From: Oceanimonas aquatica
GTDB lineage: Bacteria > Pseudomonadota > Gammaproteobacteria > Enterobacterales > Aeromonadaceae
Direction of reading: 5' to 3'
DNA length: 64,000 nt
Assembly (NCBI RefSeq): GCF_030732065.1
Contig: NZ_JAVBHX010000004.1
Location: forward strand, 62,001 to 126,000
A program made the translations under genes and the position numbers. Positions within the stretch are counted from its first letter, which is position 1; each line of letters opens with the position of its first letter. Shown one piece after another: positions 2,812 to 62,157 of the stretch. The notes under the pieces were generated by a model. It did not search any database and was not told the DNA's origin. It worked only from the letters and a program-made list of their open reading frames with translations.

Positions 2812-2850
2812 GCCCAAAAAGCAAAAGGGCGGAAGCCTGCGCTTCCGCCC
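2812..2850 (-). terminator. Terminator of the BCCT transporter operon
   Basis: The hairpin GGGCGGAAGC-CTGC-GCTTCCGCCC (2827-2850) is followed on the minus strand by TTTTGCTTTTT. It lies 25 bases past the stop codon of the transporter gene. Confidence 0.8.
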
Positions 2851-2875
2851 TGTGATTGTCTTTACCGGCAGCCGG

Positions 2876-4456
2876 TCAGTCGGCCGGTACTGCAACCACG
2901 GCCGGTTGTTCCGCCTGCTGGGCTGGCGCCACACTCTCGGTTTCCCGGCCATTGAGCCAGCGGAAGAAGCCGTACAGCATGATGAAGATCACCAGCATCA
3001 GCGGCAGTGAGGTGACGATGGCCATGGTCTGTACCGTGCTCAGGGGAGCGTCGATAAACATCATCGCCAGGGGCACCGCCGCCAGGATCAGGCACCAGAA
3101 CAGCCGCAGCGCCGTGGGCGGGTTGGCGTTTTCATCCAGCTGATTGGAGGCGGTGGCTGCCAGGGTAAAGGAGGCAGAGTCCAGGGTGGTGGCCAGGAAC
3201 AGAATGGACATGACCGCAAACACCATGATGAAGAGGGCGCTGAACGGCAGGGTCCGCAGCACTTCCACTACCGTGGCCGAGCCGCCGATGCTGTTGATGG
3301 ACTCGGTGACGTTGACCAGATCGTTGAGGTGGGTGCTCATGCTGTAGCTGCCCAGCACGCCAAAGAAGATAAAGCAGCCGGCACTGCCGCCCACCACCAT
3401 GCTGAGGATCACTTCCTTCAGGGTGCGGCCCGCCGACACCTTGGTGACGAACAGCGCCATAAAGGGCACATAGGTCATCCAGTAGGCCCAGTAGAATACG
3501 GTCCAGGAGGTGGGGAAGGAGCCGCCTTCCACCGGATCGGTCCACAGGCTCATGCGAATGAAGTTCTGCAGCATCAGGCCATAGCCGTTCACCGACTGGT
3601 CGATGATAAAGGTGGTCGGGCCCAGCACCAGAATGGCGAGCACAAACAGCACCGCCAGCTTGGTGTTCATGTCGCTCAGCTTGGCCATGCCCTTTTCAAT
3701 GCCCACGTAGGAGCTGACGGTAAACAGGGCGGTAATGGCCAGCATCAGGCCCAGGTTCATGCCAAAGCTGCTTTTGGTGCCCAGCAGGGACGCGATGCCT
3801 TCGGTCACCATGGGCACGCTCAGCCCAAGGGTAATGCCCATGGCGCCCACGCAGCTGAAGATGAAAATGGTGTCGATGGTCTTGCCCACGGCCGTGGTGT
3901 AATAGCGGCCCATGATGCTTTCACACACCGCGGAGAGCTTGAGCTGCGGGTTCTTGCGCACATGAAAGGAGTAGGCCACCGGCAGCGAGGCGATGCAGTA
4001 CAGCGACCAGGCCGAAATGCCCCAGTGGAACATGTTGTAGCTGGTGGCCCATTCCGCCGCCAGCGGCGAATTCGCTTCGATATTGTAGGGCGGATCCATG
4101 TAGTAATAGCCCCACTCCAGAAAGGCCCAGTACACGGTGGCCGAGCCCAGGCCGGCGCAGATCATCATGGCCAGGTAGGTGAACAGGCTGTACTGGGGCT
4201 TGTTGTCGCCGAGGCGAATGTTGCCGTGCTTGCCAAAGGCAATGCAGGCCAGCGCAATCACGCTGAAAAAGCCGAACAGCAGATACACGGAGCCGAACTG
4301 CTCGGTGATACCGCTGAACAGCATCTTGGCCACGTCGTTACCCTGTTCGGGGTACAGTGACAGGCCTGCCACGATAAAAAAGATGGTGGTGAGGCTTATC
4401 AGCATCAGCGGTTTGTCGACGCTTTTTCTCTGTTGTTTCATAGCGAATGATTCCAT
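2876..4456 (-). CDS. BCCT family transporter
   Basis: A 526-residue polytopic membrane protein of the betaine/carnitine/choline transporter family. About twelve hydrophobic helices are visible, with the conserved early segment GLGSATVYWAFLEWGYYY and the later TVFYWAYWMTYVPFMALF that carries the tryptophan-rich substrate region. Family members import quaternary ammonium compounds, ectoine or sulfonium compounds with sodium or protons, or exchange them. It is the last gene of a four-gene minus-strand cluster, eight bases after the enolase-type gene. That position suggests it imports the substrate of that pathway rather than an osmolyte. The start is either the ATG at 4456 or the in-frame ATG at 4441; neither has a strong ribosome site. 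Confidence 0.9.
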   Translation of the reverse strand: MESFAMKQQRKSVDKPLMLISLTTIFFIVAGLSLYPEQGNDVAKMLFSGITEQFGSVYLLFGFFSVIALACIAFGKHGNIRLGDNKPQYSLFTYLAMMICAGLGSATVYWAFLEWGYYYMDPPYNIEANSPLAAEWATSYNMFHWGISAWSLYCIASLPVAYSFHVRKNPQLKLSAVCESIMGRYYTTAVGKTIDTIFIFSCVGAMGITLGLSVPMVTEGIASLLGTKSSFGMNLGLMLAITALFTVSSYVGIEKGMAKLSDMNTKLAVLFVLAILVLGPTTFIIDQSVNGYGLMLQNFIRMSLWTDPVEGGSFPTSWTVFYWAYWMTYVPFMALFVTKVSAGRTLKEVILSMVVGGSAGCFIFFGVLGSYSMSTHLNDLVNVTESINSIGGSATVVEVLRTLPFSALFIMVFAVMSILFLATTLDSASFTLAATASNQLDENANPPTALRLFWCLILAAVPLAMMFIDAPLSTVQTMAIVTSLPLMLVIFIMLYGFFRWLNGRETESVAPAQQAEQPAVVAVPAD

Positions 4457-4464
4457 TTCGTTTA

Positions 4465-5580
4465 TTACACGCGGTAGCGGCCGATGATGTCTTCGTTGAG
4501 TTCGATACCCAGTCCGGGTGACATCGGCACGGGTACATGGCCGTTTTCAAAGGGCAGACGGTTGGCCACCAGATCGGTGAACAGCGGGCTTTGGCTCTGG
4601 GAATATTCCATCAGGGTGCCGTGCTCGCAGGCCGCGAGAAAGTGCACCGAGGCGGCCAGCAGAATGCCGGTACTGAAACCGTGGGGCACCAGCTGCACGC
4701 CGTGCAGCTGAGCCAGGTCGTAGATTTTTTTCATTTCGGTGATGCCGCCACAGCGGGTGATGTCCGGCTGCACGATATCGACCCCGGAATGCTCCAGGAA
4801 ATGCTTGAATTCGTAACGGGTAGTGAGCGACTCGCCCCCGGCCAGCTTGGCCTTGAGCCTGCCTGCAAGCTTGTTGTAGCCGGCCAGATCGTCGGCCAGC
4901 ACCGGCTCTTCGATCCAGTTCAGGTTATAGGGCGCCAGCCGTTCGGCCATGTAGCCGGCATGGCCCGAGGTGCGCCACTTGGAGGCCAGATCGATCTGCA
5001 CCTCTATGTGCTCGCCCACCGCCTCGCGCACCGCCTTGACGATGCGCACATCGGTATCGGGATCGTCGCCGAACACGCCACCACCGAACTTGATGCTGGT
5101 AAAGCCCTGGGCCACGAGATCGGCGGCAATGGCGCCGTTGGCCTCGGGATCAGCGTCGGGAATAAAGGTGCCGTAGGCCTTGATCCTGTCGCGGTACTGG
5201 CCGCCCAGCAGGGTATGCAGGGGAACCTGGTAAAACTGACCGGCAATGTCCCACAGCGCGATGTCGATGGCGCTGATGGCATGAATGCCGGCGCCGCGGC
5301 GACCCACGTAGTTGGACGCCCAGTACATCTTGTTCCACAGCCGCTCGATTTCCAGCGGGTTTTCGCCGATCAGCAGTGCGCGCAGGCCATGGCAATAGAG
5401 ATTGGACTGAGGCGTTTCAATGCAGGCCTTGATCACGGCCGGGGAGCTGTCGGCTTCGCCCACGCCAATCAGGCCGGTGTCGGTGTGCACGCGCACAATG
5501 ACCGCATCCTCGCCCCACTCGCACTCCTGATCCGCCGCGGGCACCCGCAGACAAATGACTTCTACATCGGTAATACGCAT
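4465..5580 (-). CDS. Enolase superfamily protein, mandelate racemase-type
   Basis: A 371-residue protein with an N-terminal capping domain and a C-terminal barrel of the mandelate racemase/muconate lactonizing family. Magnesium ligands are visible as the Asp in QIDLASKW, the Glu in WIEEPVL and the Glu in LAGGESL. A His-Asp base is present in DIVQPDITRCGGITE and VPHGFSTGI, as in mandelate racemase-like acid-sugar dehydratases and epimerases. The opposite-face motif is SIKFGGGVFG, with one Lys and no second Lys or His two residues on. Such enzymes abstract a proton alpha to a carboxylate, so dehydration or epimerisation of a hydroxy-acid or amino-acid betaine is likely. Clustered with a BCCT transporter and a UxaA-type dehydratase; the substrate is not known. 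Confidence 0.85.
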   Translation of the reverse strand: MRITDVEVICLRVPAADQECEWGEDAVIVRVHTDTGLIGVGEADSSPAVIKACIETPQSNLYCHGLRALLIGENPLEIERLWNKMYWASNYVGRRGAGIHAISAIDIALWDIAGQFYQVPLHTLLGGQYRDRIKAYGTFIPDADPEANGAIAADLVAQGFTSIKFGGGVFGDDPDTDVRIVKAVREAVGEHIEVQIDLASKWRTSGHAGYMAERLAPYNLNWIEEPVLADDLAGYNKLAGRLKAKLAGGESLTTRYEFKHFLEHSGVDIVQPDITRCGGITEMKKIYDLAQLHGVQLVPHGFSTGILLAASVHFLAACEHGTLMEYSQSQSPLFTDLVANRLPFENGHVPVPMSPGLGIELNEDIIGRYRV

Positions 5581-5589
5581 CGAAACCTC

Positions 5590-6768
5590 TTAAACCGGTT
5601 GGGTATGGATCAGCGTTTCCAGGCGCTGCTCCTTCTGGTAAAGCGAGCAGTAGGCAAAGCCGACTTCCTCGATGGCGGTTTGCTCGCCGTCGATCACGCG
5701 ATCCAGGCAGTCGAGCACTCGCTCGGCGGCCTGTTCCACGCTTTGGGTGGCCGACATGATGCCGCTTACGTCCACGTCGATGTCTTCGGTGATCAGTGAT
5801 GCATTGCCGCTGACCCGGATCACCGGCACTATGGGATTGCTGAAACCGGCGCCGCCGGTGGTCCACAAAATCACCTGGGCACCCAGGGCCGCGAAGTGCA
5901 TGCCCGAGCCACCACACAGGTGGGTGGTCTCCGACAGGTACATGCCCGGCGCCTGTGGCTGTTCAATGCCCTGCGGGGTAATGCGCAGCACGTCCTGAAT
6001 GGGGCGGGTACCGGTTTTATGCAGGGCACCCAGGGCCTTTTCTTCCAGGGTGGTCAGGCCGCCGACGCTGTTGCCGATGCTCATGGTTTCCACTTCTGTG
6101 CCGGGCACGTGCCAGCGCCGTTCTTCTTCCAGGATCAGCCGTTCCAGCTTGTCGGCCACCGCCGGGCTGACCGCCCGCCGGCGCAGAATGTCTTCACAGC
6201 CGATCAGTTCAATCAGCTCGCCGGCCACGCAGCTGGCGCCGGCATCCACCAGGGCATCGACTGCCCGGCCCACCGCCGGGTTGGACGCAATGCCGGAACT
6301 GGTATCGGAGCCGCCGCATTTGACGCCCACCAGCAGCTCGCTGATGGAAACCGGCTCGACCGGTACCGCTTCGGCCAGCGCCACCAGTTCCTGAGCCAGG
6401 GCGATGCCGTCACGAATGGTCTGGCGGGTGCCGTTGTTCTTGATGATCGACAGCCGGCGCACCGGCTTGCCGGCCTGCTCCAGCGGGGTGGCGATCAGCG
6501 CCGGATCGATACTGCCGCAGCCCATGTTGAGGATCAGCGCGCCCGCCACGTTGGGGTTGAGGCCGGCGCCTGTCATGATATTGACCAGCTCTTCGTTGCC
6601 GCCATACATGCAGGTGTAATGGTTGGTGACGATGACGCAGTCGCTTACTTTCTGGCGAATGGCCTGGGCGATGCCTTCGGCACACTCATCAACGGCCAGG
6701 ATCAGAATATGATTGCGGATCCCGACCTGGCCATTGGCGCGCCGGTACCCCTGAAATTGCTGTTTCAT
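5590..6768 (-). CDS. UxaA family dehydratase/lyase, large subunit
   Basis: A 392-residue protein matching the C-terminal catalytic part of altronate dehydratase UxaA, galactarate dehydratase GarD and the large subunit of (2R)-sulfolactate sulfo-lyase. Typical motifs are GYRRANGQVGIRNHILIL at the start, LILNMGCGSID, KCGGSDTSSGIASNPAVG near residue 150, and VILWTTGGAGFSNPIVPVIR near 300. Cysteines in these motifs probably bind an iron cofactor. The small SAF-domain subunit is encoded just upstream with an ATGA overlap, so the enzyme is split in two as in SuyAB. Which hydroxy-acid it acts on is not visible; altronate seems less likely beside a BCCT transporter. Confidence 0.85.
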   Translation of the reverse strand: MKQQFQGYRRANGQVGIRNHILILAVDECAEGIAQAIRQKVSDCVIVTNHYTCMYGGNEELVNIMTGAGLNPNVAGALILNMGCGSIDPALIATPLEQAGKPVRRLSIIKNNGTRQTIRDGIALAQELVALAEAVPVEPVSISELLVGVKCGGSDTSSGIASNPAVGRAVDALVDAGASCVAGELIELIGCEDILRRRAVSPAVADKLERLILEEERRWHVPGTEVETMSIGNSVGGLTTLEEKALGALHKTGTRPIQDVLRITPQGIEQPQAPGMYLSETTHLCGGSGMHFAALGAQVILWTTGGAGFSNPIVPVIRVSGNASLITEDIDVDVSGIMSATQSVEQAAERVLDCLDRVIDGEQTAIEEVGFAYCSLYQKEQRLETLIHTQPV

Positions 6769-7103
6769 TCGGTTTCGATCCGCATTTGCTGAATGATCTG
6801 TTCGATGATGCTGTCCGGAATATCAACCCGGCTGCTGCGCACGTTTTGCACATGCACCAGCTCACCGGCGGGAATAGCCCTGATCGCGATCCCGATGTTG
6901 TAGCCGGCCTTGCCGATGTGTTCTTCAGGCGCGATGGCGTTCAGCGCCATCTTGTTGCCAAAGGGAATGGCCTGCAGCGTCTGAAAGCTGCCCACCCGCT
7001 GGTTGTTATCGTCGATGACCTCCACTGTCTGATGCTTGCCCGCATCACTCAGCAAGGTGGCGACATTGTCCTGTCGGTGTAACCGAATGGCTTTGATTGT
7101 CAT
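6765..7103 (-). CDS. UxaA family SAF-domain small subunit
   Basis: A 112-residue SAF-domain protein homologous to the N-terminal part of UxaA and to sulfolactate sulfo-lyase small subunits: IRLHRQDNVATLL near the start and GKAGYNIGIAIRAIPAGE in the middle. The usual family motifs GHKxA and VHxHN appear here as FGNKMALNAI and VHVQNV, so both expected histidines are replaced by Asn and Gln. The start ATG at 7103 follows CAGGTGAAC; an upstream extension to 7160 lacks this support and runs into the likely operator. It is the first gene of the catabolic cluster and overlaps the large subunit by four bases. Confidence 0.8.
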   Translation of the reverse strand: MTIKAIRLHRQDNVATLLSDAGKHQTVEVIDDNNQRVGSFQTLQAIPFGNKMALNAIAPEEHIGKAGYNIGIAIRAIPAGELVHVQNVRSSRVDIPDSIIEQIIQQMRIETE

Positions 7104-7124
7104 GTTCACCTGATCCTTTTTGCT

Positions 7125-7139
7125 GATTGTCCTACAATC
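7125..7139. promoter_or_regulatory. Candidate FadR-type GntR operator GATTGTcctACAATC
   Basis: A perfect 6-base inverted repeat with a 3-base centre, matching the TNGTnnnACNA pattern common for GntR regulators with an FCD domain. It lies 21 bases upstream of the first gene of the UxaA/BCCT cluster and in the same divergent gap as the GntR gene at 7311. Operator function is inferred. Confidence 0.6.
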
Positions 7140-7151
7140 TACGGTCGGCGA

Positions 7152-7169
7152 TTTTGACATAGGTCAAAA
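7152..7169. promoter_or_regulatory. FNR/CRP-family-like palindrome TTTTGAC-ATAG-GTCAAAA
   Basis: A perfect 7-base inverted repeat with a 4-base spacer. Its core TTGACnnnnGTCAA has the geometry of FNR/Dnr-class sites. It lies between the catabolic cluster and its divergent regulator. It may instead be a chance palindrome around a -35 element. Confidence 0.4.
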
Positions 7170-7310
7170 CCGAGGAACAGTGCCAATGTGTCTGTTTTTT
7201 GGCGCTCCGGTGCCGCGCTTTGTGGGCCGGAGCGGCGGATGAGTATCACCCCGGTGGTGAAGAATCCTGTACAATGTTCCTGCTCGATTCACCCTAACGA
7301 TTGATATGTA

Positions 7311-8000
7311 ATGAAAAAAATCATTAAAAGCAGTCTGGAAGAACAAGCCGCCGACTACCTGCGCGAGCTCATTCTCAGCGGCCATTACCAAATGGGACAA
7401 AAGCTGGTGGAAAGTGCCCTGGCCCGGGAGCTGGAGCTGTCGCGCAGCACCATTCGCATGGCGCTGAACACCCTGGCCCACGAGGGCATAGTGGTGCAGA
7501 CCCCTTATGTGGGCTGGCAGGTGATCGATCTGAACGAGCATGATCTGTGGGAGATCTTCCATCTGCGGGTGGCACTGGAGCCGCGCTCCGCCTGGCTGGC
7601 CGCCGAGCGTTTGAATGATGAGGGCCGCCAGCGGTTGCAGCACATGATGGCGCTGTTTCTGGAAAAGGCCGCCACCCCGGGCGTGGACAGCCAGGAGCTG
7701 AGCCGCATGGAGTTGCAGCTGCACAGCCTGATTGTGGAGCTGAGTGAAAACCAGCGGCTTTACGGCATCTATCAGAACGTGGCTAATCAGATGCTGATTT
7801 ATTTCAACATCGATCTGGTGACCTACGAGCCGGCGGAAATTGCCGACAGCCACCAGCCGCTGGTGGATGCCATTTGTGCCGGCGATGCCGAGCTGGCGGC
7901 CCGGCTGGCAGAAGAAAACATCACCACCTTCAGCGAGATTGGTGAGAAGTTCAAGGCGCACTGCGAGCAGTCTCGCCGGCGGGCGGCGGCCGGGCGCTGA
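7311..8000 (+). CDS. GntR family transcriptional regulator, FadR subfamily (FCD domain)
   Basis: A 229-residue regulator. Residues 1-75 form a winged helix (AADYLRELILSGHYQMGQKL, then LSRSTIRMALNTLAHEGIV). The remainder is an all-helical FCD ligand domain, with HLRVALEPRSAWLAAERL near residue 85 and metal-binding histidines such as the one in DSHQPLVDAI. FCD members usually repress catabolic operons and release DNA on binding a carboxylic acid. This gene is divergent from the SAF/UxaA/enolase/BCCT cluster, and a matching palindrome lies in the 207-base gap at 7125-7139. It is therefore the likely local repressor. A TACAAT at 7270-7275 may be its -10 element. Confidence 0.9.
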   Translation: MKKIIKSSLEEQAADYLRELILSGHYQMGQKLVESALARELELSRSTIRMALNTLAHEGIVVQTPYVGWQVIDLNEHDLWEIFHLRVALEPRSAWLAAERLNDEGRQRLQHMMALFLEKAATPGVDSQELSRMELQLHSLIVELSENQRLYGIYQNVANQMLIYFNIDLVTYEPAEIADSHQPLVDAICAGDAELAARLAEENITTFSEIGEKFKAHCEQSRRRAAAGR

Positions 8001-8070: not shown

Positions 8071-8889
8071 ATGAGCAACCTCACCGGAACCCTGATCAAA
8101 ATGCCGGCCAGCCTGGCCGGCCCCGTGGCCTATCAACTGGCGCTGGGCGAGCACCGTATCGACCTGAACGCCCGCCTGGGTCAGCCGTTGAAGCTGACCT
8201 TTACCGGCAACATTTACTGCGATGCCTGCGGCCGCAAAACCAAAAAAAGCTATTCCCAGGGGCACTGCTTTCCCTGCATGAAAAAGCTGGCCCGCTGCGA
8301 CATGTGCGTGATGAAGCCGGAAACCTGTCACTACTTTGAAGGCACCTGCCGCGAGCCCGAGTGGGGCGATCGCAACTGCATGGTGCAGCACGTGGTTTAC
8401 CTGGCCAACACCTCCGGGCTGAAGGTGGGTATTACCCGTCACACTCAGGTACCCACCCGCTGGATTGACCAGGGTGCCACTCAGGCGTTGCCCCTGCTCA
8501 GGGTGGCCACCCGCCAGCTGTCCGGCTTTGTGGAAGTAGCGCTGGCCGACATGGTGGCCGACAAAACCAACTGGCGCGCCATGCTCAAGGGGGAGGAGGC
8601 CCCGCTGGACCTGAAAGCCGAAGCCGAGCGCCTGCTGCCGGAAATAAAGGAGAAGCTGGCCGAGCTCTCGCTCAAATACGGCGACGACGCCATTACTCAG
8701 GTGGACGAGCCGGTGGTGGAACTCAGCTATCCGGTGCTGGAATACCCCACCAAAATCACCAGTCACAACTTTGACAAGCACCCCGAAGTGGCCGGCACCC
8801 TGCTCGGCATCAAGGGCCAGTATCTGATCCTCGACACCGGGGTTATCAACCTGCGCAAGTTCACCGGCTACGAAGTCACGCTGGACTGA
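8071..8889 (+). CDS. DUF2797 domain-containing protein
   Basis: A 272-residue cytoplasmic protein recognised as DUF2797. Near residue 50 is a cysteine-rich zinc-ribbon-like section: IYCDACGRKTKKSY, GHCFPCMKKLARCDMC, and TCHYFEGTC. It is followed by a mixed domain with VVYLANTSGLKVGITRHTQV, a GIY-YIG-like beta-strand signature, and WIDQGATQALPL. Family members are widespread in gammaproteobacteria and have no assigned function; nucleic-acid binding is suggested only by the zinc ribbon and the GIY-YIG resemblance. The gene stands 70 bases after the GntR regulator, and the HAD gene follows at 8936. Confidence 0.8.
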   Translation: MSNLTGTLIKMPASLAGPVAYQLALGEHRIDLNARLGQPLKLTFTGNIYCDACGRKTKKSYSQGHCFPCMKKLARCDMCVMKPETCHYFEGTCREPEWGDRNCMVQHVVYLANTSGLKVGITRHTQVPTRWIDQGATQALPLLRVATRQLSGFVEVALADMVADKTNWRAMLKGEEAPLDLKAEAERLLPEIKEKLAELSLKYGDDAITQVDEPVVELSYPVLEYPTKITSHNFDKHPEVAGTLLGIKGQYLILDTGVINLRKFTGYEVTLD

Positions 8890-8935
8890 GCAGGGCCGGG
8901 TGAGGTGGGTTTTTAAAGGGAATGAGGGGGCAGTG

Positions 8936-9565
8936 ATGACTCGCGGCAGTGATTTTAAATTTCATGATATTCAAGGTGTTATCTTCGATCTCGATGGCAC
9001 CCTGGCCCATTCCAATCCCGATTTTCCGGGCTTGCGCCGTGAGTTGGGCATGAGCCCCGGGGCCGATGTGCTGGCCCATGTGGACAGCCTGAATGATGCT
9101 TCGGCGCGAGAAAAGGCGCTGGCCATTATTCACGAGTACGAATGCCGGGCATCGCACAGCTCCAGCTGGGTGGACGGGGCGAAGGAGCTGATCGCGTTTC
9201 TGCGCGCCAGGTCGCTGCCGCTGGCGATTTTAACCCGCAACATCCCCGAGGCTGCCCAGCTCACCATCAATAAACTGGGTATCGACATTGATCTGGTATT
9301 AACCCGTCATGATGCCAGGCCCAAACCCCACCCCGAAGGGATCCAGATAATTTGCCGACAGTGGCAGCTGGCGCCGGCCGACATTCTGTATGTGGGCGAT
9401 TATCTGTTTGACTTGCAAACCGCACAAAATGCCGGCAGCCGCTGTGCGCTGTATTTCCCCGACACGGTTCCCGATTATGCCCATGAGGCGGACCTGCTGG
9501 TGGCCTGTTATCACCGCTTTATCGACGCCTGGCGCCAGGGCGATGAGCGGGCGAAAGAGGGTTGA
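8936..9565 (+). CDS. HAD family hydrolase
   Basis: A 209-residue haloacid dehalogenase-type phosphatase. Motif I is VIFDLDGTLAHS (nucleophile and acid Asp), motif II is AILTRNIPE, motif III is the Lys in RPKPHPEG, and motif IV is YVGDYLFDLQTA. A small helical cap lies between motifs I and II. It resembles phosphoglycolate phosphatase-like HAD-IA enzymes; the substrate is unknown. The ATG at 8936 was chosen over the GTG at 8900 because GAGGGGG lies just before it and the HAD fold begins soon after. It stands 46 bases after the DUF2797 gene and is probably cotranscribed with it. Confidence 0.85.
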   Translation: MTRGSDFKFHDIQGVIFDLDGTLAHSNPDFPGLRRELGMSPGADVLAHVDSLNDASAREKALAIIHEYECRASHSSSWVDGAKELIAFLRARSLPLAILTRNIPEAAQLTINKLGIDIDLVLTRHDARPKPHPEGIQIICRQWQLAPADILYVGDYLFDLQTAQNAGSRCALYFPDTVPDYAHEADLLVACYHRFIDAWRQGDERAKEG

Positions 9566-9604
9566 GCAATCAGCGCGAGGTTTCTGGATTTCTGGCCTTG
9601 CCGC

Positions 9605-9728
9605 ATAACTCAAGTACGTCGCCCCCGAGAAGGAACGTCATTCACCGCGAAGACGGGGACCCAGTGCTGGTGCCGACGGAATGGACTCCCGTCTTCACGG
9701 GAATGACAAATAACCCAAGTACGTCGCC
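9605..9728. repeat. Direct repeats flanking a REP-like palindrome
   Basis: ATAAC(T/C)CAAGTACGTCGCC occurs at 9605-9623 and again at 9710-9728 with one mismatch. Between them is an imperfect palindrome from GTCATTC (9637) to GAATGAC (9707), whose arms hold ACCGCGAAGACGGGG and TCCCGTCTTCACGGG. The arrangement looks like a small intergenic mobile or REP/MITE-type element. Confidence 0.6.
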
Positions 9729-9741
9729 TTTGCCCTCAAAC

Positions 9742-9771
9742 AAAAAGCCGGCCCATGAAGGCCGGCTTTTG
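9742..9771. terminator. Bidirectional terminator between HAD gene and cstA-type gene
   Basis: AAAAGCCGGCC (9743-9753) pairs with GGCCGGCTTTT (9760-9770), so A and T tracts flank the stem on both strands. It can terminate the minus-strand transporter transcript and plus-strand transcription from the HAD gene. Confidence 0.85.
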
Positions 9772-9789
9772 CATACCAAGAGTGAGCAA

Positions 9790-11226
9790 TCAGGCTTCGT
9801 CGGCCAGCAGATGCTCGTTGCGGCCCTTGATGCGGGTCACGATCAGGGCGGTGATCACCAGGGTCAGCACAATGCCGGTGATGGTGGACAGGGTCATCGG
9901 CAGGCCCGCGCCCAGGGTGGCGGAGTTCAGCAGGAAGCTGATGACCACGGTAGTCATGAACATGGCCGGCACGGTGGCAATCCAGTGCAGCTTGTTGTGG
10001 CGCAGCAGGTAGGCCGAGGCGGTCCACAGCATCATCACGGCGGTAGCCTGGTTGGCGACCCCGAAGTAACGCCAGATAATGCCGAAGTCCACCTGGGTCA
10101 GTACGGCGCCAATCACGAACAGCGGAATGGCCAGCATCAGCCGCTTGGGCAGGCGGTTTTGCGGCAGGTTGAAGTACTCGGCCAGGATCAGACGGGCGGA
10201 GCGAAAGGCGGTGTCGCCGGAGGTAATGGGCAGCACAATCACGCCCAGCACCGCCATAAAGCCACCCACGGCACCCAGCAGGCCGGTTGATGCCTCATAC
10301 ACCAGGTTGGCCGGGTTGCCGCCCATGCCGTTGTTCAGGCCTTCCACGCCACCGAAGAAGGACAGGGCGATGGCGCACCAGATCAGCGCAATAATGCCTT
10401 CCCCGATCATGGCGCCGTAGAACACGAAGCGGCCGTTGCTTTCATTTTCCACGCAGCGGGCCATCAGCGGCGACTGGGTGGCATGAAAGCCGGATACGGC
10501 GCCACAGGCGATGGTGATGAACAGCGCCGGCCACAGCGGCATGTCGTTGGGGTTCAGGTTCTGCAGGAAGTCATCCACTTCAAAGCCCGGCAGCATGCTG
10601 TGCTCGCTGGAAGCGACCAGCGCCACGGTGAGGCCCACCGACATGAAGATCAGCAGGGCGCCGAAGAAGGGGTACAGACGACCGATGATCTTGTCTACCG
10701 GCACTATGGTGGCCAGCAGGTAATAGACGAAGATCACGCCCACAAACACCGACACGCTCACGCCGGTGATCTTGGCCAGCAGGCCGGCGGGGGCGGAGAT
10801 AAACACCACACCCACCAGCAGCAGCAGCACAATGGCGAACACGTTCATAAAGTTTTTGGCACCCCGGCCCAGGTATTTACCCGCCAGGTTGGGCACAGAC
10901 TGGCCGCCGTTGCGCACCGACAGCATGCCGGAGAAGTAGTCGTGTACGGCACCGGCGAAGATGCAGCCCAGCACAATCCACAGCATGGCGGCGGGGCCGT
11001 AAAGCGCGCCCAGAATGGGGCCGAAGATGGGGCCGACACCGGCGATGTTAAGCAGCTGGATGAGGTAGACCTTGCCCTTGGACATGGGCACATAGTCGAC
11101 GCCATCGCCCTGAGTAAACGCCGGGGTCTGGCGCTCCGTCCGAATGCCAAACACCTTTTCGACAAAGGTGCCGTAGATGAAATAGCCGCCGAGCAGCAGG
11201 CCGACGCAGAGCAGAAACCAGGTCAT
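9790..11226 (-). CDS. CstA/BtsT-type carbon starvation protein, pyruvate transporter
   Basis: A 478-residue polytopic membrane protein of the CstA family in the short form. The family pattern is clear: NIAGVGPIFGPILGALYGP near residue 70, FAGAVHDYFSGMLSVRNGG near 105, GFHATQSPLMARCVENE near 240, and a later IITSGDTAFRSARL-like segment. E. coli CstA and BtsT import pyruvate with protons and also affect peptide use. The ATG at 11226 follows GAGGGATGATGTT; the frame is open to 11352, but that extension covers the promoter. The BtsS-BtsR genes lie immediately upstream on the same strand. A BtsR-type direct repeat stands 71 bases before the start, so BtsT is the better functional label. Confidence 0.9.
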   Translation of the reverse strand: MTWFLLCVGLLLGGYFIYGTFVEKVFGIRTERQTPAFTQGDGVDYVPMSKGKVYLIQLLNIAGVGPIFGPILGALYGPAAMLWIVLGCIFAGAVHDYFSGMLSVRNGGQSVPNLAGKYLGRGAKNFMNVFAIVLLLLVGVVFISAPAGLLAKITGVSVSVFVGVIFVYYLLATIVPVDKIIGRLYPFFGALLIFMSVGLTVALVASSEHSMLPGFEVDDFLQNLNPNDMPLWPALFITIACGAVSGFHATQSPLMARCVENESNGRFVFYGAMIGEGIIALIWCAIALSFFGGVEGLNNGMGGNPANLVYEASTGLLGAVGGFMAVLGVIVLPITSGDTAFRSARLILAEYFNLPQNRLPKRLMLAIPLFVIGAVLTQVDFGIIWRYFGVANQATAVMMLWTASAYLLRHNKLHWIATVPAMFMTTVVISFLLNSATLGAGLPMTLSTITGIVLTLVITALIVTRIKGRNEHLLADEA

Positions 11227-11296
11227 AACATCATCCCTCTTGTAGTAAGTGCCGCCAGTGTAGGCAGCCATCAACACGGGAAAAGCGGTTCCTGAG

Positions 11297-11325
11297 TGAG
11301 CGGTCGAATAAAGGGGGTAAGCGGT
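11297..11325 (-). promoter_or_regulatory. BtsR (YehT)-type binding site, ACCGCTTA-N13-ACCGCTCA
   Basis: On the minus strand ACCGCTTA (11325-11318) and ACCGCTCA (11304-11297) form a direct repeat with exactly 13 bases between. This fits the published E. coli BtsR/YehT motif ACC(G/A)CT(C/T)A-N13-ACC(G/A)CT(C/T)A as I recall it. A third partial copy, ACCGCTTT, lies at 11289-11282. The site faces the cstA/btsT-type gene starting at 11226. Confidence 0.8.
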
Positions 11326-11358
11326 CGGCAGCGGGGCTGAACGATCGCTCATATTCTG

Positions 11359-12069
11359 CTAGTGAAAACCGAACAGCTGCTTGAGGGGCTTGAGGTAGCG
11401 GCGCGATACCGGCACCCGGGCGCCGGCGCGGGTGGTGAGCTCGGCGCCGGCTTCCAGCATCTCGATTTCGGCAATGGCGCCGGGTGCTACCAGGTATTGC
11501 CGGTGGCAGCGCACCAGGGGGGTTTTTTCTTCGATGACCTTCAGGGTCATCTGGGTGTGCACCTGCTCGCTGGCGGTGGCCACGTGTACGCCGGAGAGAT
11601 CGCTGAACACGTATTCCACCTCCGCCACCGGCACTACCTTCAGCTTCTGGCCGCTGTAGCAGGGCAGGTGCTCCAGCCGGCTCGGGGCCAGGGCTTCCAC
11701 TGCCTGCGGGCGCAGATCCCGGCGTACCTTTTCCAGGGTTTGTTGCAGTCGCTGCTCGTCCACCGGCTTGAGCAGGTAGTCAAAGGCGTGGCGCTCAAAG
11801 GCCTGCACCGCGAACTCGTCAAAGGCGGTGACGAACACCACTCTGGGCATGGTGGCCGGATCCAGCATGGCGATCAGCTCCATGCCGGTAATGCGGGGCA
11901 TCTGAATATCCAGAAACACCAGATCGGGCTTTAGCCGGGTGATGGCCTGCATGGCTTCAATGGCGTTGCCGCACTGGCCTACAATCTCGATGTCATCGGC
12001 CTCGGCGAGCTGGGCGGCCAGCTCGTCCCGGGCAAAGGGTTCGTCGTCGATAATCAGGCAGGTGATCAT
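11359..12069 (-). CDS. btsR: LytTR response regulator, BtsR type
   Basis: A 236-residue two-component response regulator. Residues 1-120 are a receiver domain with acidic residues in CLIIDDEPFARDEL and the phosphorylatable Asp in PDLVFLDIQMPRITG. Residues 135-236 form a LytTR DNA-binding domain, with VEYVFSDLSGVHVAT and LVRCHRQYLV. It overlaps the LytS-type kinase gene by four bases (ATGA) and lies just upstream of the CstA/BtsT transporter on the same strand. In E. coli, BtsSR responds to external pyruvate and induces btsT. Here all three genes are adjacent and a matching binding motif is present. Confidence 0.9.
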   Translation of the reverse strand: MITCLIIDDEPFARDELAAQLAEADDIEIVGQCGNAIEAMQAITRLKPDLVFLDIQMPRITGMELIAMLDPATMPRVVFVTAFDEFAVQAFERHAFDYLLKPVDEQRLQQTLEKVRRDLRPQAVEALAPSRLEHLPCYSGQKLKVVPVAEVEYVFSDLSGVHVATASEQVHTQMTLKVIEEKTPLVRCHRQYLVAPGAIAEIEMLEAGAELTTRAGARVPVSRRYLKPLKQLFGFH

Positions 12070-13742
12070 GCTGGGGGCTCCGTAATGGGCAGGCGAATTT
12101 CAACCCGGGTAAAGTCACCGGGTTCACAGACCACGGTCAGGCCGTAGTCGGGGCCGAACAGGTTCTGAATGCGCTTGTGCACCAGGTTCATGCCCAGACC
12201 GTCCGAGTCTTTTTTGGGCTGATACAGGCCGGCGTTGTCGGTGACTTCCAGCAGCAGTTCCTGGTTATTCAGGCTGGCGTTAACCTGAATATGACCGGTG
12301 TCCAGCAGGTGGGAAGTGCCGTGCTTGACCGCGTTTTCGATAATGGGCTGCAGGGTAAAGGCCGGCACCCGAATACCGTGCAGCGACTCGGGAATGTCGA
12401 TGTCCACTCGCAGTTTGTCGATAAAGCGGGCCTTCTCGATGGTCAGGTAGGCATGAATATGCTCCAGTTCGTCGCCCAGGGTGACCAGGCCGGTGGTGCG
12501 CTTGAGGTTGATGCGCAGAAACTGGCTGAGCTGCTGCAACAGCTGCCGCGCCTTGTTGGGATCCCGGCGGGTAATGGCGCCTATGGTGCTCAGGGCATTG
12601 AACAGAAAATGCGGATTAACCTGGGCCTGCAACAGTTTCAGCTCCGCCTGGGTCAGCAGGCTTTGCTGCTCCACAAAGCGGCCAAACAGGATCTGGCTGG
12701 ACAGCAGGCGGGCGATGCCTTCCCCCAGGGTGCGGTTGATATTGAGGAACAGCTTGTTCTTGGGCTCGTACAGCTTGATGGTGCCCACCACTTCGTTGTC
12801 ACTGCGCAGCGGAATCACCAGGCTGGAGCCAAGCGTGCAGTGGGGCGACATGGAGCAGGCGTAGGGAGTTTCCACGCCGTCGGCAAACATCACCCGGTTG
12901 TGATGAATGGCGTCCAGGGTCATTTGCGAGGAAATGGGCGCGCCGGGCAGATGGTGATCGGCGCCGATGCCGATAAAGGCCAGCAGCTTTTCCCGGTCGG
13001 TAATGGCCACGGCACCGACTTTGGTTTCTTCTATCAATATGCGCGCCACCTGGGCGCTGGTTTCCTCGTTAAAGCCCTTGCTGAGCAGGCCCACGCTGCG
13101 TTCGGCAATTTTCAGCGCCTTGGTGGAAAAGGCCGACGACTGCTTGTCGAACATGGCTTTCTGATCCCGAATCATGCTCATGAACAGGGCGGCGCCCACC
13201 GAGTTGACCAGCAGCATGGACGGCGCGATTTGCAGCACCAGTGCCAGGGCATCGTCAAAGGGGCGGGCCAGCAGCAAAATAATGCTCATCTGCATGATCT
13301 CGGCAGCCAGGGTGAGCAGGCACACCCGTAGTGGATTGAACACCTGCTCACTGCGTCCGGTGCGCCGCAGATACAGGCTGACCAGGCCGGCGGAGAGCCC
13401 TTCCAGGGTAGTGGATACGGCGCAGGCCAGATCGGTAAAGCCGCCCAGGCTGTAGCGGTGCAGCCCGCCGGTGAGGCCCACCAGGGTGCCGGTAACCGGG
13501 CCGCCGAGCAGGCCGCCCAGCACCGCACCCATGGCACGGGTGTTGGCGATGGCGCCGTGGGTCTGCTCGCCAAAGTAGGTGGCCATGATGCAAAAGCCGG
13601 AAAACACCAGATAAATGAACACCTTGTGGGGCAGCCGGGTGGCGGCCTCGGTAAACAGTTTGAACAGCGGCGTGCGGCTGACCAGGTACACAATGACCAG
13701 ATACAGCGACATCTGCTGGGTCAGCAGCAGCACGAGGGACAT
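12066..13742 (-). CDS. btsS: LytS-type sensor histidine kinase, BtsS type
   Basis: A 558-residue membrane sensor kinase. The first 170 residues form the 5TMR-LytS membrane domain, with GGPVTGTLVGLTGGLHRYSL. A GAF-like section follows near residues 220-350, with VGAVAITDREKLLAFIGIGA. The C-terminal kinase has LLQAQVNPHFLFNALSTIGA, where the His is phosphorylated, and the ATPase motif IIENAVKHGTS. The ATG at 13742 follows AAGGAGTCTTC; an in-frame TTG five codons upstream is less likely. A TTTACC-17-TATACA promoter is visible upstream. It forms the sensor half of the pyruvate system with the overlapping regulator gene. Confidence 0.9.
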   Translation of the reverse strand: MSLVLLLTQQMSLYLVIVYLVSRTPLFKLFTEAATRLPHKVFIYLVFSGFCIMATYFGEQTHGAIANTRAMGAVLGGLLGGPVTGTLVGLTGGLHRYSLGGFTDLACAVSTTLEGLSAGLVSLYLRRTGRSEQVFNPLRVCLLTLAAEIMQMSIILLLARPFDDALALVLQIAPSMLLVNSVGAALFMSMIRDQKAMFDKQSSAFSTKALKIAERSVGLLSKGFNEETSAQVARILIEETKVGAVAITDREKLLAFIGIGADHHLPGAPISSQMTLDAIHHNRVMFADGVETPYACSMSPHCTLGSSLVIPLRSDNEVVGTIKLYEPKNKLFLNINRTLGEGIARLLSSQILFGRFVEQQSLLTQAELKLLQAQVNPHFLFNALSTIGAITRRDPNKARQLLQQLSQFLRINLKRTTGLVTLGDELEHIHAYLTIEKARFIDKLRVDIDIPESLHGIRVPAFTLQPIIENAVKHGTSHLLDTGHIQVNASLNNQELLLEVTDNAGLYQPKKDSDGLGMNLVHKRIQNLFGPDYGLTVVCEPGDFTRVEIRLPITEPPA

Positions 13743-13781
13743 GAAGACTCCTTGCAACAGCAGGGCGAGGCCGGCCCTGAT

Positions 13782-61122: not shown

Positions 61123-62157
61123 ATGGATATTACGGAATTACTGGCGTTCAGTGTAAAGCATAATGCCTCCGATCTGCACCTCTCTGCCGGCGTGCAGCCG
61201 CTGTTGCGGGTAGACGGCGAGGTCCGCAAGATCAACCTGCCGGTGTTGGATCACCGGGAAGTACACCGGCTGGTGTACGACATCATGAACGATCGTCAGC
61301 GCAAGGAGCTGGAAGAAAACTTTGAAGTCGATTTCTCCTTTGAGCTGCCGGGGCTGGCACGGTTTCGTGTGAATGCCTATCACCAGGCCCGGGGCGCGGC
61401 GGCGGTGTTCCGGGTGATCCCGAGCGAGGTCTGGACCCTGGATCAGCTGGGCGGTCCGGAGATCTTTGAGCGCATTGCCGAATATTCCCGCGGCCTGGTG
61501 CTGGTCACCGGCCCTACCGGCTCGGGCAAGTCCACCACTCTGGCGGCCATGGTCAACCACATCAACGACAACTTCAACAAGCACATTCTGACCATCGAAG
61601 ATCCCATTGAATTCGTGCACGACAACAAGAAATGCCTGGTCAACCAGCGGGAAGTGCACCGAGACACCCACTCCTTCAGCCATGCCCTGCGTTCGGCCCT
61701 GCGGGAAGACCCCGATATCATTCTGGTGGGGGAACTCAGGGATCTGGAAACCATTCGGCTGGCGCTTACCGCCGCCGAAACCGGCCATCTGGTGTTTGGC
61801 ACCCTGCACACCTCGTCGGCGGCCAAGACCATTGACCGTATCATCGATGTGTTTCCCGGCGCCGAAAAGGACATGGTGCGCTCCATGCTGTCGGAATCGC
61901 TGAAGGCGGTGATCTCCCAGAACCTGCTGAAGAAGATCAGCGGCGGCCGGGTGGCGGCCCACGAGATCATGCTGGGTACCCCGGCCATTCGTAACCTGAT
62001 CCGGGAAGACAAGGTGGCGCAGATGTATTCGGTGATCCAGACCGGCATGGCCCACGGCATGCAGACCATGGATCAGTCCCTCAAGCGGCTGGTGGCCAGC
62101 GGTCAGGTGTCCCCCGCCGACGCCCGTACCAAGGCGGTGGATCCCCAGAGCATCTGA
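61123..62157 (+). CDS. pilT: Type IV pilus twitching motility ATPase PilT
   Basis: A 344-residue hexameric ATPase that pulls type IV pili back. It starts MDITELLAFSVKHNASDLHL with the N-terminal PAS-like domain. Walker A is LVLVTGPTGSGKSTTLAAMV near residue 128, followed by [20 protein letters not shown] (Asp box) and the AIRAGE-like LREDPDIILVGELRDLETIR. The His box is TGHLVFGTLHTSSAAKTIDR, and the end AVDPQSI is usual. Position beside yggS and before pilU is the typical gammaproteobacterial arrangement. Confidence 0.96.
   Translation: MDITELLAFSVKHNASDLHLSAGVQPLLRVDGEVRKINLPVLDHREVHRLVYDIMNDRQRKELEENFEVDFSFELPGLARFRVNAYHQARGAAAVFRVIPSEVWTLDQLGGPEIFERIAEYSRGLVLVTGPTGSGKSTTLAAMVNHINDNFNKHILTIEDPIEFVHDNKKCLVNQREVHRDTHSFSHALRSALREDPDIILVGELRDLETIRLALTAAETGHLVFGTLHTSSAAKTIDRIIDVFPGAEKDMVRSMLSESLKAVISQNLLKKISGGRVAAHEIMLGTPAIRNLIREDKVAQMYSVIQTGMAHGMQTMDQSLKRLVASGQVSPADARTKAVDPQSI

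Follow-up and report, generated by a model that had tools for sequence, protein, structure and literature searches.

Why would a bacterium encode two non-homologous enzymes of elimination families beside a single transporter? This question was raised by a five-gene locus of Oceanimonas aquatica (assembly GCF_030732065.1, contig NZ_JAVBHX010000004.1, forward-strand positions 62,001 to 126,000; this whole stretch of 64,000 nucleotides is called the window, and coordinates are those of the window unless a locus is named). A tight operon on the minus strand encodes a small, SAF-type UxaA subunit (6765-7103, about 112 amino acids), a UxaA catalytic subunit (5590-6768, 392 amino acids; PF20629 4.5e-66, PF04295 1.3e-28), an enolase of the mandelate-racemase subgroup (MR/MLE) that we call ENOL1 (4465-5580, 371 amino acids; PF13378 5e-65) and a BCCT transporter (2876-4456, 526 amino acids; PF02028 E=4e-130), and a GntR-family regulator gene with an FCD domain (FadR type) diverges from it on the plus strand (7311-8000; PF00392 4.8e-16, PF07729 6.2e-20). 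An earlier sequence-only reading of this DNA had named these five genes and their families, and all were found in place, four of them by Pfam domain matches; the UxaA enzyme is split as it had said, its two chains being encoded by separate genes that overlap by 4 bp, with gaps of 9 bp between ENOL1 and the catalytic subunit gene and 8 bp between BCCT and ENOL1. The reading that we favour, at a probability of about 45%, is that the operon imports a small, probably zwitterionic hydroxy-acid, which two parallel dehydratases, perhaps for opposite stereoisomers, would convert to a 2-oxo acid. It is the assembly that is new, the component protein families being known. An open-access literature search found no description of this gene combination, and the sole paper matched by both 'BCCT' and 'mandelate racemase' (PMC13206832) is on serpentinite actinobacteria.

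A self-contained cassette with interchangeable parts

Related loci were collected by a profile scan of genome contigs with an alignment of five ENOL1 proteins, a search with two short peptide patterns that was not exhaustive and gave 48 loci; two of five plasmid matches were added (three Haladaptatus plasmid matches, at 37%, were left out) and locus L092, which ends at a contig edge, was dropped, giving 49. A transporter was encoded in every one of these, BCCT in 40 and EamA in 9. Of the 49 loci, 32 have the UxaA pair with ENOL1 (23 with BCCT, 9 with EamA), the small subunit being present every time (32/32); they belong to Gammaproteobacteria, one alphaproteobacterium and one Clostridium, the hosts including Oceanisphaera, Photobacterium, Vibrio, Psychromonas, Shewanella, Marinobacter, Zooshikella, Pseudovibrio and Clostridium asparagiforme. 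A further 11 loci, from Psychrobacter, Psychrobacillus, Peribacillus, Pseudomonas, Paenarthrobacter and Actinotignum, lack UxaA and carry a second enolase, ENOL2, with BCCT; six have BCCT and neither partner. Within the genus Oceanimonas, ENOL1 was found at 87% identity or more in 4 of 23 genomes, and the other three carriers have all five genes in the same order. Because of this shared order and the 32 of 49 loci found through ENOL1, we regard the cluster as more than a chance neighbourhood, and the distinct module that had been suggested is indeed kept outside its source genome. It is rare, module-like UxaA proteins (at least 59% identity) being present in 5 of 295 genomes of an order sample and 3 of 398 of a phylum sample.

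Clustering of neighbouring genes (40% identity, 51 stretches) recovered, beyond the module enzymes, transporters and regulators, no family in more than eight stretches, the commonest being NupC-like (8/51); in G+C-rich loci the frames were poorly chosen, and neighbours were named by eye. The locus is a conserved, self-contained cassette with two non-homologous elimination-family enzymes, interchangeable parts and an operator-like site. In Clostridium asparagiforme (L067:5255-6532 and 8356-9786) a LarA-type protein, scoring as a nickel-dependent putative hexonate epimerase (572 bits, cut-off 500), and a sigma-54 activator are encoded upstream of ENOL1; a relative of this activator also adjoins the truncated ENOL1 of L092.

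On the ENOL1 tree (50 rows) the EamA transporter needs two changes (one was allowed in 6% of bootstrap trees) and the partner label five, and a starred branch unites the Clostridium sequence, with UxaA, and the ENOL2 set of Bacillaceae and Psychrobacter. The exchange of UxaA for an enolase within one cassette would appear to be a non-homologous replacement. The parts are also found as separate units. In Photobacterium marinum, whose ENOL1 locus is one of the six with neither partner, a GntR/small-subunit/UxaA/EamA unit stands apart from a LysR/BCCT/ENOL1 unit; no ENOL1 was seen within 16 kb of sequence around the former, whose UxaA is of module type (65%). Vibrio sinensis and P. frigidiphilum, which have no local partner, carry elsewhere an ENOL2-like gene (46-47%) beside BCCT and FAD oxidoreductase genes, and the same set lies on a Vibrio plasmid with no ENOL1 annotated nearby (the oxidoreductase was named by HMM on the plasmid and in P. 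frigidiphilum, and by eye in V. sinensis).

An alternative that we consider rather unlikely is that the enzymes act in sequence, ENOL1 and UxaA (or ENOL2) carrying out two eliminations, or an isomerisation and an elimination, on one substrate. The ENOL1 and UxaA genes do share a strand in the window and in 24 of the 32 UxaA loci (they diverge in eight, seven from Shewanella and one from Marinobacter), and for three of the six loci that lack a local partner the same genome encodes one at another site. Against this, the Roseateles, Burkholderia and Klebsiella genomes have ENOL1 with BCCT but gave UxaA matches of 35% or less only, in long frames of fused size, and no ENOL2 match at E<=1e-30, and the two P. 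marinum units each have their own regulator and transporter. Such separable units favour parallel enzymes over a fixed sequence, short of proof.

Two arrangements of these units were seen besides. The seven Shewanella loci with the module (L062-L066, L070, L076) have the UxaA pair divergent from BCCT-ENOL1, followed by both LysR and GntR genes, which suggests two regulatory units fused into one locus. A sister unit of GntR, FAD oxidoreductase, ENOL2-like enolase and BCCT genes occurs at L108:6817-11794, L061:2002-7034 and L139:5512-10595 (PF12831 in L108 and L061; the L108 enolase is 45% identical to ENOL2) and perhaps serves a related pathway with an oxidation step.

Active sites of the UxaA pair and the enolases

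The catalytic subunit has GD_AH_second and GD_AH_C domains above the curated cut-offs, which places it in the UxaA/GarD superfamily. Its closest solved sequence is GarD (PDB 6u7l, 1.1e-29), and when its AlphaFold2 model (mean pLDDT 82.8) was compared with PDB at E<=0.001, only four chains of 6u7l matched (best E=7e-19), indicating a GarD fold. The small subunit has no Pfam match and resembles the galactarate-dehydratase N-terminus (TIGR03248 6.5e-7) and PDB 3k3s and 3laz. The likelier start is 7103 rather than 7160, since several relatives share it; the frame is open upstream in two close relatives too, which is compatible with the 7160 start.

A tree of 53 UxaA rows was built with 17 of the 33 module proteins, the others being SuyB-context, SDR/FAH-context, fused UxaA and GarD proteins. 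The 17 module rows came together in a single clade (100/100; branch 1.97) that excludes the altronate, galactarate and sulfolactate-context groups, so that the suggestion of a new module survived this comparison. With its own clade, two chains and a TIGR03248 score of 125.6 bits against 730.85, the enzyme was not identifiable as altronate (UxaA) or galactarate (GarD) dehydratase. Cys29, Cys53, Cys84 and Cys151 are present in 17 of 17 module rows; they were equated by conservation, rather than by the published alignment, with the four conserved cysteines that PMC6336799 describes for the UxaA/GarD superfamily, where alpha-proton abstraction and an iron site are suggested.

Three of these four cysteines are absent from 12 of 12 SuyB-context rows, which disfavours the idea that the pair is a SuyAB-like sulfo-lyase in a sulfonate module. 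We hold that idea to be highly improbable. Like SuyAB the module enzyme has separate small and large subunits, and the SuyB-context group is its nearest large group, but weakly so (82/92, with long branches flagged by the tree program); the module rows lie outside that group, in a separate clade, and do not show its replaced cysteines. A TauE/SafE-like gene (by eye; L033:15942-17213) about 3.9 kb beyond BCCT in Psychromonas would suit a sulfonate, but such a neighbour is not conserved elsewhere. The SuyB rows in this tree, which held no protein of proven sulfo-lyase activity, were named by gene context, on the SlcC/ComC/SuyAB association given in PMC12421959, and the context was HMM-checked for three of the 12 (Ldh_2, 2-Hacid_dh, Cons_hypoth698), the sulfolactate dehydrogenase model staying below its cut-off in checked loci (214.9 and 179.9 against 500). 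The Ruegeria pomeroyi megaplasmid was tried as a source of SuyB and had no UxaA-type gene annotated within the 49 kb examined.

The module proteins are altered at positions invariant in 35 other rows (the outlier L131 being left out of this five-position comparison): G52T, E85G, F302W, G310N/S/Q and K318R (one Leu). With L131 included, position 85 outside the module is Glu in 35 of 36 rows and Asp in one. The residue between the glycines of the TTG[RQ]G motif is missing from 17 of 17 module rows; the 36 other rows have Arg (21), Gln (13), Ala (1) or Pro (1) there.

Turning to ENOL1, the metal ligands D197, E224 and E250, the H300-D273 dyad, E325 and K164 were conserved in 50 of 50 sequences. 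Mandelate racemase, a two-base racemase, combines a Lys-x-Lys motif with a His-Asp dyad; in ENOL1 the position of the second lysine (166) is Gly in 50 of 50, which does not support the earlier label of a racemase-type enolase. With the dyad kept and this lysine replaced, ENOL1 looks like a dehydratase, and its three metal ligands and His-Asp dyad are those of enolase-superfamily acid-sugar dehydratases, although it falls below the NCBIfam equivalog cut-offs of the named dehydratases (best PRK14017, 230 bits against 311). The closest solved structure over the full length is PDB 3sjn (E=5e-189), a mandelate racemase/muconate lactonizing protein that we take to be from Shewanella pealeana; a literature search on its PDB code and locus tag found no paper about it.

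At the position of His185 of E. coli D-galactonate dehydratase (DgoD), which is the general acid there, ENOL1 has Ala or Val. This raised another possibility, in which the cationic group itself leaves the beta carbon of a 2-hydroxy acid as trimethylamine or dimethyl sulfide, giving pyruvate directly: such a leaving group would need no general acid, and both the BCCT and the lack of conserved downstream enzymes would be accounted for. The dehydratase-type cysteine set of UxaA argues instead for loss of a hydroxyl, and other dehydratases use one His as both base and acid, so this reaction is judged very unlikely.

ENOL2 is only 30% identical to ENOL1 and has a Lys-x-His motif and Asp/Glu/Asn at the metal positions in 12 of 12 sequences (including the ENOL2-like copy of L061), with Gln-Ser in place of the His-Gly of ENOL1 (12/12) and hence no beta-7 His. 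In the enolase superfamily the residues of the Lys side and those of the His side approach the substrate from opposite faces, and from this comes the idea that ENOL1 and ENOL2 would act on different stereoisomers.

Transport, regulation and genomic setting

The window BCCT meets the TIGR00842 subfamily model (421.8 bits, cut-off 407.55), and its closest solved sequence is DddT. Its motif reads FYWAYW, in which Tyr325 aligns with CaiT Trp323; all module BCCTs (41/41) read FYW[LA]YW here, in contrast to the Trp-Trp of E. coli YeaV and CaiT. Two of the three BCCTs of the sister unit with FAD oxidoreductase also have the Tyr, the third giving no match to the motif pattern. The window protein is not placed with the CaiT carnitine/butyrobetaine antiporter (PRK03356, 378 bits against 541; Tyr for Trp323 in 41/41) and falls below the YeaV model PRK09950 (569.3 bits, cut-off 647); of two other module BCCTs scanned, that of Shewanella L062 passes (833.8) and that of L040 does not (599.6). 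Carnitine was considered as a substrate and set aside as a distant possibility only, with Tyr at the Trp323 position and no cai or yeaWX genes recognised among the conserved neighbours (by eye, no model search being made). Taken together, the changed invariant residues of UxaA and the transporter Tyr suggest a new substrate for the module.

That substrate could also be a plain hydroxy-acid, with the BCCT recruited for a sugar-acid-like dehydration (aldonic, tartrate- or glycerate-like) and no quaternary group involved. Both enzyme families include sugar-acid dehydratases, EamA takes the place of BCCT at nine UxaA loci, the aromatic box is altered throughout the module BCCTs, and the putative hexonate epimerase of Clostridium asparagiforme is encoded about 3.5 kb upstream. 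We nevertheless find this unlikely: 40 of the 49 loci keep BCCT, a Shewanella copy scores above the YeaV cut-off, no kinase or aldolase was recognised by eye among conserved neighbours, and the Arg/Gln of TTG[RQ]G and Glu85 have gone. The sequence-only reading had proposed a zwitterionic or sulfonated hydroxy-acid; the zwitterion fits the BCCT, tempered by the EamA loci and the altered aromatic box, and the sulfonate is disfavoured by the cysteines.

The regulator combines GntR and FCD domains and is thus of FadR type, a type with the operator consensus TNGTNNNACNA. All 19 divergent GntR/small-subunit regions examined (the window and 18 loci) have the pattern TTGTNNNACAA in the DNA that separates regulator from operon, against 0.08 expected from base shuffles; the test covered this divergent layout only, many of the regions are closely related and the motif was picked after inspection of the window. 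In the window TTGTCCTACAA, a putative operator of the divergent regulator, lies at 7127-7137, 23 bp before the likely start of the small subunit. The operator pattern occurs at five places in the window genome, namely the operon, two places within open frames (L141, L143), one between doubtful frames (L142) and one at the first codon of a frame (L144). Exact sites were no commoner there than in the reversed control (5 forward and 3 reverse matches, the control giving 10 and 11), and across six genomes the count was lower than the control in four, equal in G665 and higher in G664. Nine non-module operator-like loci were read in five other genomes, and all nine sit inside putative open frames of at least 80 codons (module loci L151 and L155 and two places without a locus being left out). 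Neither these genomes nor that of the window showed a recognisable regulon member beyond the module. A perfect palindrome with 7-bp arms, TTTTGAC-ATAG-GTCAAAA (7152-7169), FNR-like by eye, also lies between the small UxaA subunit and the regulator; it was rejected as a conserved site, its core being present in 3 of 19 regions only (window, L058, L059).

A terminator-like stem-loop with a T-rich tail (2826-2851, minus strand; 11 pairs, 8 of them G-C) lies 3' of the BCCT gene and is the probable end of the operon. Such sites numbered 6 in the region against 4.2 in shuffles, so it is the position of the stem that argues for a terminator. A sigma-70 scan gave 0 promoter-like sites (1.6 expected), and G+C is unremarkable (0.60 against 0.62). 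In all four congeneric carriers the module lies between PhoD-like and DUF2797-like genes (459-2381 and 8071-8889 in the window; named by eye) that are 5.7-6.3 kb apart. Of 14 congeneric genomes with both flanks and no module, 12 have the flanks separated by 65-793 bp and two by 4.5-4.8 kb of other DNA; five genomes gave no PhoD match. From this spacing the unit was therefore gained or lost as a block, and the spot may be an insertion site. A VOC/glyoxalase-family gene (2329-2766) lies directly downstream of the terminator and is present in all three other congeneric carriers. Further off, 9790-13757 encodes a CstA-like carrier, a LytTR-type regulator and a LytS-like kinase (named by eye), like the pyruvate-sensing Bts system; this set is perhaps a mere neighbour, though pyruvate is one possible product of the module.

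Proposed function and comparison with known systems

In the proposed route the BCCT would import a small, probably zwitterionic hydroxy-carboxylate bearing a quaternary ammonium or sulfonium group. The His300-Asp273 dyad of ENOL1 would take the proton beside the carboxylate, the neighbouring hydroxyl being expelled, and the two-subunit, iron-type UxaA would perform the same elimination on the other stereoisomer; in 11 loci ENOL2, with its Lys-x-His and no beta-7 His, would replace UxaA and act from the opposite face. The 2-oxo-acid product would pass to enzymes encoded outside the cluster, with no further enzyme family conserved adjacent in the stretches read, and the regulator would repress the operon at TTGTNNNACAA until substrate or product binds. 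We infer the dehydration chemistry, the zwitterionic substrate and the parallel use of stereoisomers.

Several points weigh against this proposal. The shared strand of ENOL1 and UxaA and the partners found elsewhere in the genome fit sequential use; the opposite-face argument fails to cover UxaA, which has a different fold; the replacement of BCCT by EamA weakens the case for a quaternary ammonium group, and the module BCCTs, with their Tyr in place of CaiT Trp323, may not be betaine carriers; loci were collected through ENOL1, so UxaA-only modules would escape the scan; and exact operator-like sites in the window genome did not exceed their control.

More tentatively still, the module may be a pathway not described before, by which a betaine- or sulfonium-type hydroxy-acid is used in both its stereoisomeric forms. 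Its UxaA-fold iron dehydratase would have been adapted to a cationic substrate by the loss of Arg/Gln and Glu and the gain of Trp, and would be exchangeable for a non-homologous enolase that acts from the opposite face. Its confirmation would give a function to unassigned proteins in several phyla, among them the solved 3sjn enolase, the so far orphan clade of UxaA proteins and the BCCTs whose aromatic box is altered. Methylated-amine or organic-sulfur turnover would gain an unrecognised route should the substrate prove to be a betaine or sulfonium acid of marine or gut origin, and the UxaA-for-enolase exchange offers a directly assayable case of apparent non-homologous replacement.

Among known systems, the UxaA/GarD superfamily (UxaA, GarD, D-arabinonate dehydratase) shares with the module the GD_AH domains, four cysteines and GarD fold; the module differs in its two chains, its own clade, Gly for Glu85, Trp302 for Phe and the missing Arg/Gln of TTG[RQ]G, and, unlike in the sugar-acid systems of that superfamily, no sugar-acid pathway genes were recognised by eye among its conserved neighbours. 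The layout of small and catalytic subunits is common to the module and the SuyAB (R)-sulfolactate sulfo-lyase, whereas the module keeps three cysteines that SuyB-context proteins lack, forms a separate clade and has no sulfolactate genes recognised adjacent to it. The His285-Asp258 dyad and metal ligands of E. coli DgoD align with those of ENOL1, the two proteins being 37% identical and His185 being replaced by Ala or Val in 50 of 50 ENOL1 sequences. YeaV, CaiT and DddT belong to the same BCCT family as the module transporter, which differs by its Tyr for CaiT Trp323.

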